Part shown: piece after piece, positions 35,744 to 63,302 of the stretch | Position numbering within the stretch: position 1 is the stretch's first letter | How the letters are laid out: each line of letters starts with the position of its first letter | Translations under genes and position numbers: made by a program | Source: Pelagomonas calceolata | Taxonomy: Eukaryota > Sar > Pelagophyceae > Pelagomonadales > Pelagomonadaceae | NCBI GenBank assembly: GCA_918797485.1 | Contig: CAKKNE010000001.1 | Location: 5,952,001 to 6,016,000 of the forward strand | DNA length: 64,000 bases | Direction: 5' to 3' | The notes under the pieces: generated by a model | Told to the model about the DNA's origin: nothing | Seen by the model: only the letters and a program-made list of their open reading frames with translations | Databases searched by the model: none

Positions 35744-38700
35744 ATGGGCTCCAATGACGAGCACAAGCACCACAAACATAAACATAAACATAAACATAAA
35801 CACAAGCACAAGCACAAGAAGGACAAGGAACCCAAAGCCGACAAGGAGCCGGAAGCGCCCACTCAAAGCGAGGACCCCCTCGCCGCGCTCGACGGCGGCA
35901 TGCTCGACGCGCTCGGCGCGAACCTCATCCAGAAGAACGAGGACCAGAAGGATCCCGATGAAGAGAAGAGGAAGGAGGAGGAACGCATCAAGAATAAAAA
36001 TTTGGACAAGTTTGCCATAACCAATTTAACCAATAAACTGAGCAAGAACCTGGCCACGAAATTCAAGTTGGCGCATAAAAATGTGGACGAAGACGGGAAG
36101 AGAGTCGACTTGTTGGTCGTAGACCAGGTCACGTCCACTTCTTGCAGATTAAGGTGGACGCGGCCGAAGACAACATATAAGCTCCATGGCGCGCGCATCA
36201 TGATGCGCGAGAAGGAGGTCAAGCCGGGCGTCGAGGGCATCTTCCGAGCCGTCGTGGACCACACGCACGATGCGGAAGGTCGAGTACGCACGGTGGTCGG
36301 TCTGAGGCCGGACACGGAGTACCAGTTCCAGGTCGCGTCGATCCACGATCTCCCGCAGAAGATCCCGAAGGACTACCCGCGCGACGGCCCGGAGTTGCCG
36401 CCGCGACCGATGATCGTCGACGGGACGAAGTGCACGTCGTCCATCATCCGGACGGCTCGCGCCAATTACATAAAAGCCTTCTTCTTCGAGGACCCGGAGG
36501 ACGCGCGGCGGGCCTGGAGCGTGTTCTTTGGCATCTATGACGATAAGAACAGCACTGGAAGGGATTTGAACGCGGTTGGTAGTGGTGATCAGTTCGTACT
36601 CGCGCAACAACTCACGATAGGCCAGACGGACCCCTGGGAGCTCTGGGAGGAGGGCGCGGTCGAGGGCGACAAGCCGCGGCCGCCGTGCATGACGGGGCGC
36701 CAGTGCATGCAGTTGCATCTTCCTGGCGGGTTGCACGGCGGGTGCTTCGCCGAGATCGAGGCGCGCGAATCGCGAAGGTATCGGGCGGAGCTGTACGTCT
36801 ACCACGACATGGAGGGCGGCAAGAACGTGGAAGATTTACCTGGGCGATGCGGTTGTCGCCTCATCAGTTTCGATGGGAGGGATCAGTACCGAACGTCGAA
36901 GCGAGCGCGCTCGAACAAAGAATGGGAGCGATTGGCGGTGGAGTTCATCGGCACGCCCGGCGACAAAGCGATCATCGCCGTGCAAGGCGACAAGAGTTTT
37001 GGAGGCGTCGTGTTGATAGACGCGTGTCGGATCTTTTTGTTGGGAAGAGACGAGATCGGCGACACGTGTGCGGAGCTCGAAGCGGCGGTGGAAGAACCTC
37101 GAATCAACAAGAACGGCGTGCTGCGGGTTAGTATTGTGGAGCTCGTCAACATCCCGCGCTTGGCGGGAGAACCGCCGCCCGCGCGGACCAGTGTCTCATT
37201 TCTCGGCGATGCCGCTGCCGTGCTGGCTCCATCGAGCGGTATTGAGCAGGCGTCGCGGCGATGGCGTGGAGGTCGACGCGACGCCAGAACAGCCACGTTC
37301 TCACTGATCGATCCGCGCCCAGGTCCTACCGGAAGAGGTCTACCTCGACCCCGACGAGGAGGACGACCTCATGGCCGACGACGTCCGCGACGAGGACTAC
37401 TACGCGGCCCGCGCCGTGCCTAGAGACCCGAAGAAAAAGAAAAAAAAGAAAAAGGACAAAAAGGAGCGCCCGACCAAACCGAGGCTGGTCCTCCACTGGG
37501 GCCGGGAGAAACTCGTGGAAACGGACGTGTTCATCAGCCATGCGGACCTCTACGCCAAGGCCCTGACGAAAGGTACGGCAGGCTTAACACCACAGGCTCT
37601 TACAGTAGATCAAGCCCGACCGAAGCTCAAGGAGAACGACCAGACCTTCCACACTTTGAGTTTGAGAAAGGAGAAGAAGGTCGGCATGTTCAAGAAGGAG
37701 GTCCAGCTCGTTGATAAGGTCCTCGAGATCGAGCTCCAAGATACCGCTACCAGAGATGTCGCCGCGAAGGCTAAAAGACGAAAGGTCGACATCGGGCCCC
37801 AGGAACCGCGAGGTCGCATCGCGCGCTTAGCCGAAGAAGAGCGTTTGAGAGCCCTGCAGGCGCGGCGACCGACGCTACTGCAGCGGTTGACCGGTAGTAC
37901 CGAAAAGGAAGGTCCCAGCCTAGAAACGCTCAAAGTCATCGACCCCGAGCAGTACGAACGCGTGAAGGCGGAACAGGACTTTCACGCGCGCATGGAGCAG
38001 GACGCGCAAGACTTGGAAGAGAGGTTAGAACGCGAAACTTTGAATTGGTGGAAGAAGGAGAAACAGTTAGTGGACTTGCGGGCGCAAGCGGTAAGTGGCG
38101 TGAAGCCCCAAACGAAAGACGAGAAGTACGGCGAGAACATGGAGCGGCAGAAGTCGCGCGCGTCTCGCGGGTCCAAGGACGAGAAGCCTACTCAAGAAAT
38201 TGTGGAGAAGCCCGAGGAGGACGAGCTCGACGCGTCGCAGGTGCAGGAATTGGCCCAATTGGTCAAGGATTCCGATGAAGAAGATGAGGAGTCTGTGGAC
38301 CCCCTCGACGACTTCGGGGGCGCGCCGCTCGGTCGACTGCGCCTGACGACGGAAGATTTGTTGAGATGTAGTCCGTATCGGACCTGGTACCGTTTAGAAG
38401 ATGAAACTGGATTAACTCAAATGTGCATCGGACTTATGATAAGGTACTGGGACCCCTACGCGAGAGTACCGAAGTATACCTGTATCCAAGAAGAGTACGC
38501 GCCCAAGGAATCGGTGAGTGAGAAACAGAAGGAGCGAGAGATGCTCGGGAACACGTCGTTTGATGATGAGGCGGCTCTGCGCAAGGCCAATGAAGTGAAA
38601 AGTAGTGTCGGTGCGGTCATGGCGAAGATGGCGACGCGGCCCTTACCGCCGAAACAGCGCGTCAATCAGTTAGGCAAGTTGTTGTACATGCTCGGGTGTT

Positions 38701-41063: not shown

Positions 41064-41429
41064 CTACGCGATGAGCACGGAGACCAGCGCGGCGACGGCC
41101 GCGGCGACCGAGATTCGGCGCGCCGGCGCGGCGTCCGTGTTGCAGATGCTGACGCCGCATGACGTCGACTCGCACTTGGTTCCGTAGAACGCCCAGTCCA
41201 GGTCAAACGGCCCACAGAAGAAGCAACTGAGGCGGCGGCCTCCTCCGTCATCGTTCCAGGGATCGTCGTCATCGTCGTCATCGTAGTCGCTGTACGGGTC
41301 GGTCACGCACCAGCCGAGGTCCTGGTCGAAGGCGGAGGCGTAGTAGAACATGTAGCTTATATCCACGTCGCTGGACACGTTCCAATTGTTGAGCGGCTGG
41401 TTGAAGAGACAAATTTTCAAAGTCCGCAA
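41064..41429 (-). pseudogene. DUF285 (BspA-like) gene fragment, 3' part
   Basis: The frame reads one DUF285 unit (FNQPLNNWNVSSDVDISYMF, then YYASAFDQDLGWCV). A run of Asp residues, a Cys-containing segment (CESTSCGV) and a C-terminal hydrophobic tail (VAAAVAALVSVLIA) that could be a GPI signal or TM follow. It lacks an ATG and the earlier repeats. The sequence upstream changes abruptly to a tandem 51-bp repeat. The ASAFDQDLGWCV and CESTSCGV phrases are near-identical to the intact gene at 61266-63302, so it is a truncated relative. Its end is convergent with the large FN3 gene, 57 nt away. Confidence 0.7.
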
Positions 41430-44905: not shown

Positions 44906-46904
44906 TCACATTAGGGGCTTCGGAAACGGCGTTCGATGGGCCGGTAGCGGGTGGGCCTCGTGCGGCGGCAGCGCGTCGGCCGGCTCCGTCGCCACGCCCG
45001 ACGGAAGCACGAAGGACTCGTCGTCGACGTAGCTCACGCTCGCCGCCAGGATGACCGGCTGGGCGCCGTCGAGCGCGTACTCGGCCTTCGTGACATCGCC
45101 TTCCACGACGTCGACGATGGTCTCCGCGACGACGCCGCGCCGCTCGACGACGACGAGCAGGCGCGCCTGCTCGCCGTCCTCGAGCGCCACGACGACGTTG
45201 CCCCGCGTGCCGCGCCGCCCGAAGGCGTAGGTCTCCATCTCGCCGGCGACGGCCCGGTCCGTCCACACAAACTCGCCGCGGCCGCCGTCGCCCGTGAGCA
45301 GCGCGACGCCCACGCGCGGCGCCTTGGCGAAGAGGCCGCGCCGCAGGCCGCGCGCCGAGACGACGTCCACCAGCACGCCGCGCCGGCGCTGCGTGCCCAA
45401 GCACGCGCGCACGAAGGCGCCGGCCTGGCGCAGCGCCGTCCGCGGCGTCTCGTGGCAGAAAGAGAAGATCGGCGAGACGTGCGGCATATCTCTGAACACG
45501 GTCAAGGTCGTCGGCGTACCCGCCGCCGCCGCCGCTCGGGCCAGTCTCACCTGTGTGGAAATCAACCAGTGTGTTGGGTGCACTTCCGTCGAGCGGTGAG
45601 GAACCGACACCGCCACGCCATCGAGCAGGCGTCGCGTCGATGGCGTGGAGATCGACGCGACGATTCAGGACAATCGCGCCGTGAAATTTTGATTTCCGCA
45701 CAGAGTCTCACCTGTTGATCATGCAAAACCTCGCACTGGCCCGTCTGGATTAATGTGGGAGGCAAGGAGTGGAGGTCGAACTTGACTGGCGAGTGCGACG
45801 CATCAGACCCCGACGCCTCGACCGTCTCGCGCGCGAGCAGGTCGATCATGTCTCCGGGTAGGAAGTCCCACCGCTCGTTCGAGAGCCGCGAGCCTCCAGT
45901 ACGCTCTTCGCCGAGGTCGACCCACGGACTGATGGCGAGGCACCCGGCCGGCGGCGCCAGGCGCCAGGCGCCGTCGCGCCCGTCCGGCGTCGCGCCGGCG
46001 TCGCGAATCTTGATCGCGAAGGCCAGCGCGAGCCCGCCGCCGGCGGAATCGCCGCCGACGCACGCTCGCGACGCGCCCAGCTCCAGGACGCGCTCGTAGG
46101 CCGCGCGAACGTCGTCCAGAGCGTCCGCACTGCTCGCGTCCGGCGGGCGCCGGAAGTCGGGCATCACGATCACCTGTGCGCAAATCAACCAGTGATGTCG
46201 GACTAGCCGTCGAGCAGGCGTCGCGTCGATGGCGTGGAGGTCGTGATTCAGCTGTGGGCGCGACATTTGTTTTATGCACTGGCGATCACGCCGCCGGTCG
46301 CGAGCGCGAGTCTGAAGGCTAAATCGCGGTGCGTGCCCCGGCCGCAGAGGCAGTGCGCGCCGCCGTGGACGAGCACGAGCGCCGGCGCGGTCCGCAGCAG
46401 CTCGCGGAACTCGGTCGTCCGGACGACGTCGGGCGTCGTCTGCGCCGACGTCGTGCTCCACTTTCTAGACAGCTCCGCCATCGGCGTCGCCGCGCGCGGC
46501 CAGACGAACTCGACGGCCAGCTCGGAGCCGTCCGGCCGCGTCAATCGCTCCGTGCAGCGCAGGACTCCGGCCGGTAATAAGGGGCCGGGGACGCTCACGG
46601 AGGTCGCCGCCCGCAGCAGGCCCACGTCTCTGGGGGCGTTCTTCGTGGCCGACCGCAGGGCCGTGACATAGGCCTCGAAGCGCGGATTCCACGTCGGCCT
46701 TTTTGCGCCGCACACCCGCGCCCGCCACTTGCCCTTCAGTAATGCGAGGGGCACGCGCAGCGGTAACGTCGTCGAGCGGAACCATCTCACGCACGGGTGC
46801 GAGTGGCTGTAGTCCAGCGGGCCTGGCGGCGGCGTGGCCGCCATGAAGGGTTGCTCGTGCGCCATTTTTGCCAGTACGACGCGCAACAGGAGCGCGGCTC
46901 TCAT
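44906..46904 (-). CDS. Alpha/beta hydrolase with C-terminal C2-like region, interrupted by two introners
   Basis: Exons on the minus strand are 46904-46290, 46173-45712 and 45550-44906 (573 residues), and both introns fall between codons. The fold is the HSL/carboxylesterase (alpha/beta hydrolase 3) type: oxyanion motif VLVHGGAH, the nucleophile elbow GGDSAGG with Ser248, the acid after IQTGQCEVLHD, and catalytic His383 in FRDMPHV. Without splicing, the third strand (GGVIVMPDF) and the IQTGQCEVLHDQQVRLARAAA join would be broken, so both introns are well supported. The last ~200 residues read GVLVDVVSARGLRRGL and LLVVVERRGVV, possibly a C2-type domain that would tether the enzyme to membrane. 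Start ATG 46904 opens with a hydrophobic leader. Substrate is probably an ester or lipid. Confidence 0.85.
45551..45703 (-). mobile_element. Introner copy B (second intron of the hydrolase gene)
   Basis: This is a 153-bp element with CTGTG...CACAG ends. Its flanks are identical 8-bp duplications (AGTCTCAC at 45543-45550 and at 45704-45711 on the plus strand). Read with the gene (minus strand), the first duplication supplies the donor GTGAGACT and the element end supplies the acceptor CACACAG. The intron is therefore complement(45551..45711), 161 nt, and splicing restores the uninterrupted gene. Inside is a hairpin core with 12-bp arms (CCACGCCATCGA / TCGATGGCGTGG). Confidence 0.92.
46174..46281 (-). 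mobile_element. Introner copy C (first intron of the hydrolase gene)
   Basis: This is a 108-bp shortened element with the family left end (CTGTGCGCAAATCAACC) and core (GAGCAGGCGTCGCG), but the right end has diverged to GCACTG. The 8-bp flanks match at seven of eight bases (ACGATCAC and GCGATCAC). Read with the gene, the donor is GTGATC and the acceptor CGCACAG, giving a 116-nt intron, complement(46174..46289), that falls between codons. Confidence 0.85.
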
Positions 46905-57475: not shown

Positions 57476-60171
57476 ATGAGCCGCCGCAGCGCCTCGCCCG
57501 CCGAAGACGCGATCCACGACCTCCTCCAGACCATGTCCCAGAAGGAGCGCGACGCGCGCTACGACGCCAAGCACAAGCAGCTCTGTGTAAGCGTGTCGCG
57601 GGCCCTCGAGAACGCGGCCTGGACGCTCGACGAGTTCTGCAACAACGACGCCGACCGCCAGACGGCGTGGACCTGTGTTGACATCAAAATTTTACGGCGC
57701 GTTCGTGCTGAATCGTCGCGTCGACCTCCACGCCATCGACGCGACGCCTGCTCGATGGCGTGGCGATGCCGGTTCCTCACCGCTCGACCGAGCCAGGACG
57801 GCCGCGTCATCGCCGAGAAATGACTTAAGTGCACCCGACGCACTGGTTGATTTCCACACAGGTCTGGACCGAGATCAGCGACGGCGCGCAGCGCATGTTG
57901 GGGCAGCTCGTCGCCGCGGGCCGGCCGCGCGCGAGCAACGCGACGGAGCCCTCGGGCGCGTCGAGCGCGCTCGCCTTCGCGCCGCCGTCGCCCTCGAACC
58001 GCGACTCCGGCGGCACGGCGCCGGTGCCGGGCCGCCTGAGCGACGACGGCGCCGCGCCAACCACCCAAGCCGACGCGCCGCGGCCGTCGACGGGGCCCCA
58101 CGGCACGCTGCGCAAGGGCGGGGCCGTCGCGCCGCGGCCGGCGTCGCGCCAGCTCGAGGAGGACCCCATCGAGGACAGCGACGCCTCGCAGTCGCCGCGG
58201 GCGCCGCCGCCGGAGCCCTCGCAGCAGAGCGTCATCGAGATCGACGACGACGACGCCGCCGCGCCGCCCGCCGAGGACGAGCACGAGTGGAGCGACGACG
58301 ACGCGGCGCCGGCCGCCCCGCCGGCCGAGGACGACGAGGAGGACGAGTGGGAGGACGACATCGCGGAGCCGCCCGCGGCCGCCCCCGATGTCGACGAACC
58401 GCCGGCCGCCGAGGAAGAAGTGATGGTGGCCGTGGCCGACGATGACGACGAGGAGGAGGAGGAGGGGCCCAAGTTCCGCGTCGGCGACTCTGTCGTCGAC
58501 GGCAGGACGGGCGAGGTGGGCCAGATCGTCGCCAAGACGACGGGCTGGTGGAAGCTCCAGATCCCGAGCTCCGACAAGGCCGTGTCGCGGCGGTCGAAGG
58601 AGCTCACGGCCCCGCCGCCGCCCGAGGCGGCCGAGGACGACGAAGAAGAAGAGGAGGAGGCCGCGCCGCCGCCGCCGGCGCCCGAGGAAAGCGAGGAGGA
58701 AGACGAGGAGGAGGCTTCGCCGCCGCTCGCCGCGCGGCGGCCGGCGAGGGGCCGGGCACCGGAGGCCGCGGCGCCGGCGCCCCGCGCGCGGCCGAAGCGC
58801 GGCCGCGCCGCCGCCGAGGCGCCTCCCGAGGAGGACGAAGAGGAGCCGCGCGAGCGCACGAAGCGCGGTCGCGCCGCGGAAGAGCCCGAGGAGAGCGAGG
58901 ACGACGAGGAGGACTCGCCGCCGCTCGCGGCGCGCCGGCCGCCGCGGCGCGCGGCGGGCGGCGCGGCCGCCGCGCCCGTCGCCGCGCCCGCGAAGAAGAA
59001 GAAGCCCGCGCGCAAGGCGCCGCCGCCGGCGAAGCCCGCAGCGAAAGCGCCGCCGGCGAAGCCCGCAACGAAGGCGCGCGGCAAGGAGAACGCCGCGCCC
59101 GCGCCCAAGAAGCGCCCGGCCGCGGCGCCCGCCGCGGCGCCCAAGCGCGCGCGGACGCAGCCCGGGCCGGCGCCGCGCTGGGGCCACTCGGCCGCCGTGC
59201 TGGAGGACGGCGCGACGATGGCGATCTGGGGCGGAGAGGGCGACGACAAGGCGGTGCACCTGTACCGCGTGGCCACGGGCTGGGAATCCATGCTCGGCGG
59301 CGGTGACATACCGGACCCGCGCGCCTGGCACGCGTCCGTTGCGTCGGGGTCGCGGCTCGTCGTCTTCGGCGGCGACGCGTCGGGCGACGGGCGGCCCGTG
59401 CGCGATAGCACCACTAAAGTGTTCGACATCGACGAGGGCGAGTGGACGGCCGAGGAGTGCGCGGCGCGGCCCCAGGCGCGGTTGGGCCACGCTTTACTAT
59501 CGCTGCGTGATAGCGAAGGCCAGGAATGCGTCGCGGCGCTGGGCGGCCTGCGCGGGCGCGACGACGGTATCACGACGACCTGCGACGCCCTGCAGAAGCG
59601 ACTCAAAATCAAGGGCTCCGTCCCCAAGGGCGAGGCTCCGAAGCCGCACGCGCACGGCTGCGCGGTCGTGTTACGAAACGGCGCGAAGGCCGTGGTCTGG
59701 ACGGGGAAGCCGTTATCTAAGGGCGACAAAGACACGCCGTCGAACAAGGTCTTCGTGCTGGAGCGCGACGCCGCCGGCGACGCGTGGACGTGGACGCGGA
59801 TGCAGTTCGTCATGGGCGACAAGCCGTCGTTCCGGAGCAAGGCGGCTTGCTGCATGCTGCCGGACGGCATCTCCGTCTTAGTCCACGGCGGGCTCGACGA
59901 AGATACGGGCGCGGTCCTCGGCGACGCGTTTATCCTGGACACGCGGCTCTGGGAGTGGTCGCGGGCGCCGAAGCGCGTCGAGAGCGCCTTCGGCGCGCGG
60001 GCCGGCCACTCGTTGGTGTGCGTGCGGGACGGTGACACGCACATGCTCCTGGCCTTCGGCGGCCGCGGGGCCGACGGGCTTACGGAGCGGGCGGATCTTG
60101 CCAAGGTCGTGGTGGACGAGAGGACATTCAAAGGATGTGCCGTGCCGCCGAGGACGAGCGCCGTCTTCTGA
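57476..60171 (+). CDS. Kelch beta-propeller protein with acidic low-complexity middle, introner in N-terminus
   Basis: Exon 1 is 57476-57664 and exon 2 is 57862-60171. Joining gives RQTVWTEISDGAQRML across the phase-0 junction (832 residues). The first donor would be GC (GCGTGG) at 57665; an alternative GT donor at 57677 would add four residues, AWTC. Exon 1 is helical (MSRRSASPAEDAIHDLLQTM, SRALENAAWTLDEFCNN). The middle is Asp/Glu/Ala/Pro/Lys rich and contains an SH3/KOW-like segment (PKFRVGDSVVDGRTGEVGQIV). The C-terminal half is a six- or seven-bladed Kelch propeller (WGHSAAVLEDGATMAIWGGE, RLVVFGGDASGDG, ISVLVHGGLDEDTG, HMLLAFGGRGADG). The role is probably chromatin or protein scaffolding; the acidic tracts and SH3-like segment suggest nuclear binding. 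Confidence 0.82.
57673..57861 (+). mobile_element. Introner copy A (intron of the Kelch gene)
   Basis: This is a 189-bp element with ends CTGTGTTGACATC and GATTTCCACACAG. Its reverse complement contains the core GAGCAGGCGTCGCG and a block (TCATTTCTCGGCGATG) shared with copy D. The 8-bp flanks match at six of eight bases (GCGTGGAC before, GTCTGGAC after). Relative to the gene it has the same orientation as copies B and C. The acceptor CACACAG is carried by the element. The donor in the left flank reads GC rather than GT. Confidence 0.88.
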
Positions 60172-61265: not shown

Positions 61266-63302
61266 ATGATGATGAGAGCGACTCTTGTGTCCTTGATGGG
61301 CATCGCCCTCGCTTTTAGCAGCCCACTGGACAATGACAGCATGCCCAAATTTGTGAAGAGCGCGCGCCCGGCGCAGACGCGGCGGCGCCTCGACGAATGC
61401 GTAAACGTCGTCGTGTCCGGATCTCCCCTGCCCGAATTGCACGGGACTTACGTGCAAAAAGGATCGTGCAATAATGGCTGGCCCCGCTGGGAGTGCGATA
61501 AATGGGGGGGATGCAGCGAAACCAGGTACATCTGGTACCAATTTGACTCCAATTGGCACATTGGGCCTAATTCCTGCTCGGATTCTGCTGAAATTTATAC
61601 ATTGGACCTGGACGCGGACCTTAGGTCCTTCTCTGGTACGTGGAATGAGTATACCACCACCGGGTACTGGCAACCGAACTCGGCCATCTCGGTCACGTGT
61701 GCAGGTGATGGCATGACCGACAGTAGCATCAGAACGGCCGTCGCGGCGTGGCTTTCGAACAGCGCATCGGCAGAGGCGACGTACGGCCATATTTCTACGT
61801 GGGAGACTGGGGGGGTGACGGACATGTCGTATTTATTTTGTGCTCATTCTTCGTGGAGTAATTGCAACACGGTCGCGGGGTCCTTCAACGAGGACATCAG
61901 CGCGTGGGACACCTCCGGCGTCACAACGATGTACACGATGTTCTACTCCGCCTCGGCCTTCGACCAGGACCTCGGCTGGTGCGTGGACGACGGCGTGGAC
62001 CTGCGCCTCGCTTTCGACGAGACCCCGTGCGAGTCGACGTCGTGCGGTGTCAATAACGTGGCTTCACTACGGTGCGGCGGTACGATGGGCGACAGCAGCA
62101 TCAGAACGGCCGTCCGGGCGTGGCTTACGGACGAGGCAGCAGCCGAGGCGACGTACGGCCATATATCGACGTGGAATACTGGGAGGGTGACGGACATGCA
62201 TGAACTGTTCTCGTCGTGGACGGGAGCGAACAGGTACTTTAACGAGCCGATAGGCAACTGGGACGTCCGCAAGGTGAAGAACATGCACGACATGTTCCAG
62301 AACGCGGAGTCCTTCAATCAAGCTCTTGGCAAATGGCAAGTCGGCGCTGTCACAGATATGAGTGACATGTTCCAGCGCGCGGCGTCGTTTAATCAGCCAC
62401 TCAATGATTGGGATCTGTCCAATGTGCAGGACATGGAGGAGATGTTCGAGGAGGCAGAGGCCTTCGACCAGGACCTTGGCTGGTGCGTGGACATGAGCCT
62501 GCGAATCGCATTTAAAAAAACCAAGTGCGAGTCGGCTGCGTGCGGCGTCGCGCAAAAGGACGTGATCGGCATATGCGAATGGTTACCACCCGTCCGTCCG
62601 TGTCTCATTGGCACAAAAACGAAAAGGCGATGTTATATCACCTCAGGAACACTCATCATCGCCGTTCTGCTTGTCCTTCTTGCTGGCTTCAGCACATGCG
62701 TCTGCTGTAGGAAGAAGAAGGACGAAACTTACTTCGCCGCCGCCCGCCGCCTCCTCCGCAGCTGCCTCTGCTGCTGCTGCCTCTGCTGCAGGAAAAAGAA
62801 GGAAAAAGGTAGCGTTAACTCCCAACCGGATTCCCGGGCGGAGTCGCCACGGGAAGAGCCCGACGAGGAAGCGACCGCCTCCGAGTCTCTGGAGTCGCGC
62901 GCCCAAGCCGCAGCCAAGGCCGAGGAGGCCGTCGAGCCTTCGTCCTTCTCGAAGCTTACCTCGTTCCTGTTCGGCGAGCGAGAAGAGGCCCCCATGGAAG
63001 AGACCCCCAAGGAAGAAGAAGAGGCCGCCGCCCTCCCCGTCGTCGCGGAAGCCGAGGAGGAGGGAGCAACCGAACAACCACCACCGCCGCCGGCGAAACG
63101 CTGGTTCTCGCGCGAGCCACCGAAAGCCGAGGAGATGCACCAGCGGGTGGGCTGTTGGTATACCTTTGCGCCGGAAGCGGCCGCGTTGCGCGCCGCCTGG
63201 GGTGAGTACCCAGGGACGCCCGACGCCCTCCAAGCGTGGCCCGGTTTCGTCCAGGTCACGAACGCGTTCCTCGACGCCAAGCTGGACGCCAAGCTGGCTT
63301 AG
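61266..63302 (+). CDS. DUF285 (BspA-like) single-pass surface protein
   Basis: The 678-residue protein starts with a signal peptide (MRATLVSLMGIALAF). The ectodomain has a Cys-rich N-terminal part and then DUF285 units of the FNxxIxxWDxSxVTxMxxMF type. Examples are GSFNEDISAWDTSGVTTMYT, YFNEPIGNWDVRKVKNMHDM, SFNQALGKWQVGAVTDMSDM and SFNQPLNDWDLSNVQDMEEM. Two near-identical ASAFDQDLGWCV / CESTSCGV modules flank them. One TM (SGTLIIAVLLVLLAGFST) is followed by a Cys-rich, Lys-rich stretch (CVCCRKKK, CLCCCCLCCRKKKE), which may be palmitoylated. The cytosolic tail is long and Glu/Pro-rich with repeats PKEEEEAAALP. This is a surface receptor or adhesin candidate. It is a close relative of the truncated copy at 41 kb. 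Confidence 0.85.
   Translation: MMMRATLVSLMGIALAFSSPLDNDSMPKFVKSARPAQTRRRLDECVNVVVSGSPLPELHGTYVQKGSCNNGWPRWECDKWGGCSETRYIWYQFDSNWHIGPNSCSDSAEIYTLDLDADLRSFSGTWNEYTTTGYWQPNSAISVTCAGDGMTDSSIRTAVAAWLSNSASAEATYGHISTWETGGVTDMSYLFCAHSSWSNCNTVAGSFNEDISAWDTSGVTTMYTMFYSASAFDQDLGWCVDDGVDLRLAFDETPCESTSCGVNNVASLRCGGTMGDSSIRTAVRAWLTDEAAAEATYGHISTWNTGRVTDMHELFSSWTGANRYFNEPIGNWDVRKVKNMHDMFQNAESFNQALGKWQVGAVTDMSDMFQRAASFNQPLNDWDLSNVQDMEEMFEEAEAFDQDLGWCVDMSLRIAFKKTKCESAACGVAQKDVIGICEWLPPVRPCLIGTKTKRRCYITSGTLIIAVLLVLLAGFSTCVCCRKKKDETYFAAARRLLRSCLCCCCLCCRKKKEKGSVNSQPDSRAESPREEPDEEATASESLESRAQAAAKAEEAVEPSSFSKLTSFLFGEREEAPMEETPKEEEEAAALPVVAEAEEEGATEQPPPPPAKRWFSREPPKAEEMHQRVGCWYTFAPEAAALRAAWGEYPGTPDALQAWPGFVQVTNAFLDAKLDAKLA

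Follow-up and report, generated by a model that had tools for sequence, protein, structure and literature searches.

The origin of new introns is a long-standing question; of the sources acting on a mass scale, introners have the best support. Huff, Zilberman and Roy (2016) reportedly established the introner mechanism, and in the introners of Aureococcus anophagefferens that they treated, one splice site is said to come from the element and the other from the duplication. The Aureococcus introners are also described as having direct repeats and terminal inverted repeats of constant length (PMC7789003), and Gozashti et al. (2022) describe introner families whose 3' splice site is part of the element and whose 5' splice site is supplied by the duplication (PMC9860276). 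For Pelagomonas calceolata, the genome paper on strain RCC100 gives six nuclear contigs (32.4 Mb in total) plus one plastid and one mitochondrial contig, and in its passages on introns it describes a peak in intron length near 210 bp, which is likened to the Aureococcus introner elements (PMC9481584). In the literature searched, this was the only paper that joined introners with Pelagomonas or pelagophytes.

We analyzed a 64,000-nucleotide stretch of P. calceolata DNA (the window, to whose positions all coordinates below refer unless another contig is named). A gene for an alpha/beta hydrolase (Abhydrolase_3) lies on its minus strand at 44906..46904, with a putative ATG at 46904 and the stop codon at 44908-44906. 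Within this gene is an element of 153 bp (45551..45703, minus strand), which on the forward strand starts with CTGTGTGGAAATCAACCAG and ends with TTTTGATTTCCGCACAG. A first-pass annotation of the sequence had claimed a perfect 8-bp flanking duplication and terminal repeats for it, and both were present: AGTCTCAC is found at 45543-45550 and again at 45704-45711, exactly bordering CTGTGTGGAAATCAA...TTTTGATTTCCGCACAG, and the element has terminal inverted repeats. An 8-mer repeated at the same spacing was found at only 8 of the 63,831 start positions in the window, five of which belonged to this one repeat. The repeat measures 12 bp in all (AGTCTCACCTGT) because the exon happens to continue with the same four bases, CTGT, that open the element; the length of the duplication was set at 8 bp because the terminal repeats fix the element ends in other copies.

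Read on the minus strand, the upstream exon ends with CAT GAT CAA CAG and is followed by the donor GTGAGACT; the acceptor is CCACACAG, after which the exon restarts with GTG AGA CTG. The predicted intron (45551..45711, minus strand) is 161 bp long and in phase 0. Its bases 1 to 8 are the donor copy of the duplication (GTGAGACT on the coding strand, 45704..45711), the exon copy of the same sequence (45543..45550) opens the downstream exon, and the coding-strand end of the element, TTGATTTCCACACAG, lies on the acceptor side. The annotation had taken the left copy as the donor, which was wrong: because the host gene is on the minus strand, the right-hand copy is the donor copy, and the left-hand copy stays exonic. 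Restoration of the frame had also been claimed, and removal of the intron did join LHDQQ to VRLARA in phase 0, but an intact protein requires the removal of 46174-46289 as well. Once both 45551-45711 and 46174-46289 are taken out, the hydrolase frame is open end to end. The spliced protein matched Abhydrolase_3 (PF07859) with an E value of 4.1e-37, and its alignment with EstD11 ran over the junction without gaps or extra residues ('cevlhdqqvrlaraaaaag' versus 'AETLLDDSVRLAERARAAG').

Judged from these sequence features and from the copies described below, 45551-45703 is probably an introner, a short nonautonomous MITE-like DNA transposon in a coding exon that is predicted to be removed as a spliceosomal intron; we put the probability of this reading at about 0.92. 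The element would insert into a coding exon and duplicate 8 bp, the duplication would provide the donor, and the element end would provide the AG acceptor. Both terminal repeats end about TTGATTTCCACACAG when read outward; therefore, either end of the element can be the acceptor, and the element occurs in both orientations. The transcript would then be spliced at the predicted sites.

Two further introners were found in the window. One is the second intron of the hydrolase gene, a 108-bp element (46174..46281, minus strand) of a subfamily whose far end is CACTG and has no AG. Its donor copy is GTGATCGC on the coding strand (46282..46289), and its exon copy, GTGATCGT (46166-46173), is identical to the donor copy at 7/8 positions. 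The other lies in a different gene on the plus strand (57665..57869, with the element at 57673-57861); here the donor copy GCGTGGAC (57665-57672) is a GC donor, and the exon copy GTCTGGAC (57862-57869) is 6/8 identical. A decayed introner-like stretch was observed at 37190-37330, where the element profile matched 37232-37288 (E = 2.7e-8) and CCGCGCCCAG followed by GT stands at about 37314-37324; the ends and the duplication of this stretch are ill-defined. Separately, 41150-41405 and 61713-62492 contain repeats on opposite strands that encode FDQDLGWC-type motifs, which we take to be those of BspA-like surface repeat proteins.

The genome (32,445,274 bases in 8 contigs) was searched with a 19-base end pattern, one base of which was left open. 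With at most 2 mismatches, 727 + 770 = 1,497 near-exact ends were found genome-wide, and one exact form of the end was found 272 + 327 = 599 times; reversed controls gave 0. The existence of further copies, which the annotation had made decisive for its proposal, was thus borne out. In viral contigs, the 19-base end pattern had no exact match. The annotation had proposed a genome search for the 153-bp element; copies are indeed many, but the full-length form measures about 203 bp, and the copy at 45551-45703 is a shortened one.

For closer analysis, we used 60 stretches from among the matches listed, all on contig 1, together with seven best-match loci and the window; this sample, though large, is not strictly systematic, and the listed places cover only part of the contig 1 matches. 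Pairing of the ends gave 87 entries, in which the duplication matched at 8/8 positions in 45, 7/8 in 23, 6/8 in 9, and fewer in 10. Seven of the 87 entries (six elements) with fewer than 5/8 matching bases and three mirror-image duplicates were left out, as were 12 A ends that had no B partner. The remaining 77 copies comprise 67 from the contig 1 stretches, 8 from the best-match loci, and 2 from the window, the hydrolase element itself included. As had been anticipated for copies of the element, 8-bp duplications were common, being perfect in 43/77 and matching at 7/8 positions in 22/77 (at least 7/8 in 65). The element ends lie 8 bp from the predicted splice site on the donor side and 0 bp from it on the acceptor side. 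In 12/77 copies, the intron is exactly 203 + 8 = 211 bp long, because the full-length element of about 203 bp is joined by the duplication. A terminal AG was found in 77/77 copies, partly by construction since the ends had been picked by similarity. Relative to the gene, 41 of the elements lie in one orientation and 36 in the other. The 599 exact ends and the 77 paired copies are therefore similar introns whose similarity extends up to the splice boundaries, as in introners, and terminal inverted repeats with a target site duplication of fixed length are present, as in MITEs.

Next, the position of the donor was examined. The coding strand at the 77 sites was called after joining the exon flanks, with the codon usage of 25 long frames of the window, so that the call was blind to splice signals. 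On the coding strand, the duplication started with GT in 60 copies, GC in 16, and CG in 1; GT/GC was thus present in 76/77, and the opposite end of the duplication started with GT/GC in 24/77. When only the 61 sites with confident coding calls were considered, the numbers were 61/61 at the donor end and 20/61 at the opposite end. In the main family, elements running A to B with the gene had GT/GC on the A side in 40/41 cases and on the B side in 12/41, and those running B to A had it on the B side in 33/33 and on the A side in 11/33. The GT/GC signal therefore tracks the coding strand rather than the orientation of the element. In the same exons and the same codon phase, the GY background was 18.2%. 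Genome-wide, GY was found eight bases upstream of 414 of the 599 exact ends (69%), and the proportion in the sample was also 69% (51/74). Since a transposase cannot know which strand is coding, we read the GT/GC bias as a trace of selection for spliceable insertions; hardly any insertions lack GT/GC on the coding strand, and those that did presumably have been purged. Fifteen further copies, mostly older or ill-defined ones and including the six elements dropped above, had GT/GC at the donor place in 13/15 cases (5/6 among the dropped elements), and the two without it were those at loci L057 and L044. The proposal that the donor comes from the duplication and the acceptor from the element terminus thus fits 76/77 of the sampled copies, but the GTGAGA that had been singled out as an ideal donor is not typical of them. 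Decay of the terminal repeat at the B end did not differ between the donor and acceptor sides (37 versus 32 copies; P = 0.53), a weak comparison because the sampled copies were selected for perfect A ends and are young.

The subfamily to which the second hydrolase intron belongs has a B end of CACTG, not CACAG, and therefore no AG there. Under the model, only its A end can be an acceptor, and the duplication on the B side must end with AC/GC. This was the case for 73/78 exact ends of this one-way type genome-wide, for which the pattern demanded that the ninth following base not be A and the coding strand was not called; the main family had AC/GC on the corresponding side in 45/74. The free end of the one-way subfamily had GY in 30/78, above the background of 18.2%. 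In the five exceptions among the 78 ends, AC was observed shifted exactly one base further, as if the duplication were 9 bp long or the end carried one extra base. Three CACTG copies with a coding call lie in the permitted orientation (L025, L069, and window position 46174). One diverged CACTG candidate (L044:3382-3583) was called in the forbidden orientation; its duplication matches at 3/8 positions, and since this is no clear duplication, its ends may be wrong.

We weighed three other explanations of the element. It might carry both splice sites, with the donor inside CTGT/GTGGAA, and so add 12 nt (the 8-bp duplication and 4 bp of the element) to the mRNA. Internal GTs do exist in CTGTGTGG, and an Aureococcus sp. 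family is described as adding 8 + 4 bp (PMC9860276, legend of Fig. 2F). However, such a model gives no reason why the duplication should start with GT/GC on the coding strand in 76/77 copies, leaves the 73/78 of the one-way subfamily unexplained, and would add residues where EstD11 aligns without any; we regard it as quite improbable.

Even less probable is a spread through RNA, by reverse splicing of a spliced intron and without a DNA transposase. The copies are introns in coding sequence, in the sense strand of splicing, as such a process would have it, and a spread by way of RNA has been suggested for the introners of fungi (PMC9860276). Against it stand the 8-bp duplications (at least 7/8 identical in 65/77 copies), the terminal inverted repeats, and the presence of elements lying both ways in their genes (41 and 36 of 77), because a reverse-spliced intron would keep one orientation. 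Equally improbable is an ordinary MITE without splicing of its own, whether the gene around it has decayed or it sits within an older intron. Eukaryotes commonly carry MITEs with short duplications, but the host frame is otherwise open and is conserved on both sides of two introners, and the enrichment of donors would have no place under this explanation; moreover, the exon boundary lies at the duplication itself, which leaves no older intron around the element. All three models were rejected in favor of an introner whose donor comes from the duplication.

An exact search of a prokaryote genome collection with a 21-base end found one contig, NZGT01000054.1 (L070), labeled Spirochaeta sp. MED672. 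This contig aligns piecewise to P. calceolata contig 6 at about 80 to 87% identity and carries introners; it looks like misplaced Pelagomonas-like algal nuclear DNA. A gene shared by the two contigs encodes what we take, from its HGDAHLGN motif, to be a kinase-like protein. In the environmental copy of this gene, a 108-bp introner flanked by a perfect duplication (GTCGGCCG) occupies a site that is empty in P. calceolata, and P. calceolata has a decayed 75-bp element, with its donor 13 bp downstream, at a site that is empty in the environmental copy. The element profile, at an E value of 0.01, did not pick up the decayed element, which was taken as an introner because it has recognizable ends, an 18-base core in common with the element consensus (12 bases at most in 5,000 shuffles), and a 7/8 duplication (GTCGCGAC and ATCGCGAC), in which GT has been lost from the exon copy. 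When the same splicing rule was applied to both lineages, the kinase-like proteins were identical at 362/416 positions (87%), with 20 gap positions elsewhere, and were continuous over both sites (LLSAEVVATYQ and LLSADVIATYQ). Insertion of an introner into an exon, with an empty site in a relative, is thus apparent from the alignment of the kinase-like gene, a locus other than the hydrolase.

Inspection by eye of L070:5600-8000 and the matching parts of contig 6 (L072 and L074) revealed more length differences that resemble lineage-specific introns, in a gene that presumably encodes an acetyl-CoA carboxylase. Three of these intron-like insertions, present only in P. calceolata, had no clear 8-bp duplication by eye. 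They may belong to other or older introner families and may reflect either gain or loss.

We then considered the quality of the donors. Past GT/GC, they fit the U1 consensus poorly: among the 77, GTRAG occurs in 2, one of which is GTGAGA, GTC occurs in 31, and GC occurs in 16, and C is the most frequent base at +3 (34). With GTRAG in only 2/77 donors, the GTGAGA of the hydrolase intron is a lucky case. Two U1 snRNA candidates were found, at 64.3 and 58.0 bits, under the Rfam cutoff of 69.5, and both have the canonical ATACTTACCTG arm. As the best record of the insertion target, we used the exon copies at the 61 sites with confident coding calls. These copies had a purine at +3 in 20 cases, where the same exons would predict 34, and GYRAG in 3 versus 1.7 expected; C at position 3 (32 versus 17.7), A at position 7 (23 versus 9.7), and AC at the free end (11 versus 3.1) were in excess. 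The overall palindrome score of the target was not significant (P = 0.07). These excesses point to a transposase with a weak symmetrical preference for targets like GTC..GAC.

A count conceived post hoc, after the data had been seen, compared the two copies of the duplication: where donor and exon copies differed at +2 to +6, the donor was nearer the U1 consensus in 20 cases, and farther from it in 4, with 21 differences that went neither way or both ways (87 copies; P = 0.0015). The 77 sampled copies alone gave 13, 3, and 18 (P = 0.021), and the ten further copies, which are those of the 15 with at least 4/8 matching bases (the 77 needed at least 5/8), gave 7, 1, and 3. At +3, the differences were toward U1 in 6/6 cases, and since five of these were C to G, a drift toward A and T does not explain them. 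A tentative reading, to which we give somewhat less than even odds, is that the GTC..GAC preference of the transposase provides only bare GY donors, poor at +3 for a canonical U1, that these are tolerated at insertion, perhaps by means of the terminal-repeat fold, and then mature toward U1, and that the exon copy roughly keeps the sequence of the insertion site. In the predicted RNA fold of 45551-45711, the only copy folded, the terminal repeats are paired and the 8-base donor copy is unpaired (-69.8 kcal/mol; z = -4.89). Such a hairpin, which terminal inverted repeats would form anyway, would set a weak donor beside the acceptor, and pairing of the repeats in the RNA may in this way aid weak donors. 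Maturation of donors as read from duplication pairs was not met in the introner and Pelagomonas literature examined, which was not searched specifically for it, and no priority is claimed. If the reading is true, hundreds of independent intron gains in one genome would show how 5' splice sites arise and mature, and if it holds over all copies, the demands of the spliceosome on a newborn intron could be measured, and so could what later selection adds.

Duplications of about 8 bp are made by transposases of the hAT, KDZ, MULE, P-type, and Merlin families, and these five families were chosen for a search of the genome. The hAT dimerization domain (PF05699) had a single match, at C4:4499982-4500185 (E = 1.9e-4) in an open frame of 721 amino acids, and the 3.2-kb locus around it (L009) contained none of the terminal repeats described here. 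The Pfam families for MULE and Merlin transposases had no match in the genome; those for KDZ and P-type transposases had none there or in any control genome and are therefore hardly informative. The element would be mobilized by a transposase acting in trans.

Compared with the described systems, an introner-type element is already known, and introners in P. calceolata are mentioned in print (PMC9481584). The introns of about 210 bp in that paper are very probably the same elements as those described here; its passages on P. calceolata introns give the length peak but no ends, duplications, or mechanism. What is added here is that GTGAGA is atypical, that the target shows signs of a weak GTC..GAC preference, and that, by the post hoc count, donor copies tend to be nearer the U1 consensus. 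With a two-way element, a one-way subfamily as a control, and a lineage with reciprocal empty sites, the genome offers a clean internal test of whether the donor comes from the duplication. The introners of Symbiodinium microadriaticum have the same division of splice sites and terminal inverted repeats (PMC9860276, legend of Fig. 2B), but their duplications are described as 4 bp long, whereas those of P. calceolata measure 8 bp. Those of Amoebophrya likewise have direct repeats at exon boundaries, inverted repeats, and a predicted hairpin proposed to join the ends; they differ in their varied noncanonical splice sites and direct repeats of 3 to 5 nt (PMC7789003), in contrast to GT/GC-AG and 8 bp in P. 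calceolata. The introners of A. anophagefferens, as far as they are described in the passages cited above, share with those studied here a pelagophyte host, direct and terminal inverted repeats, and introns of about 210 bp. The P. calceolata element may differ from them in being usable both ways, with a one-way subfamily; its donors fit U1 poorly. The process is one known from related algae, and the P. calceolata copies show the working of an introner unusually clearly.
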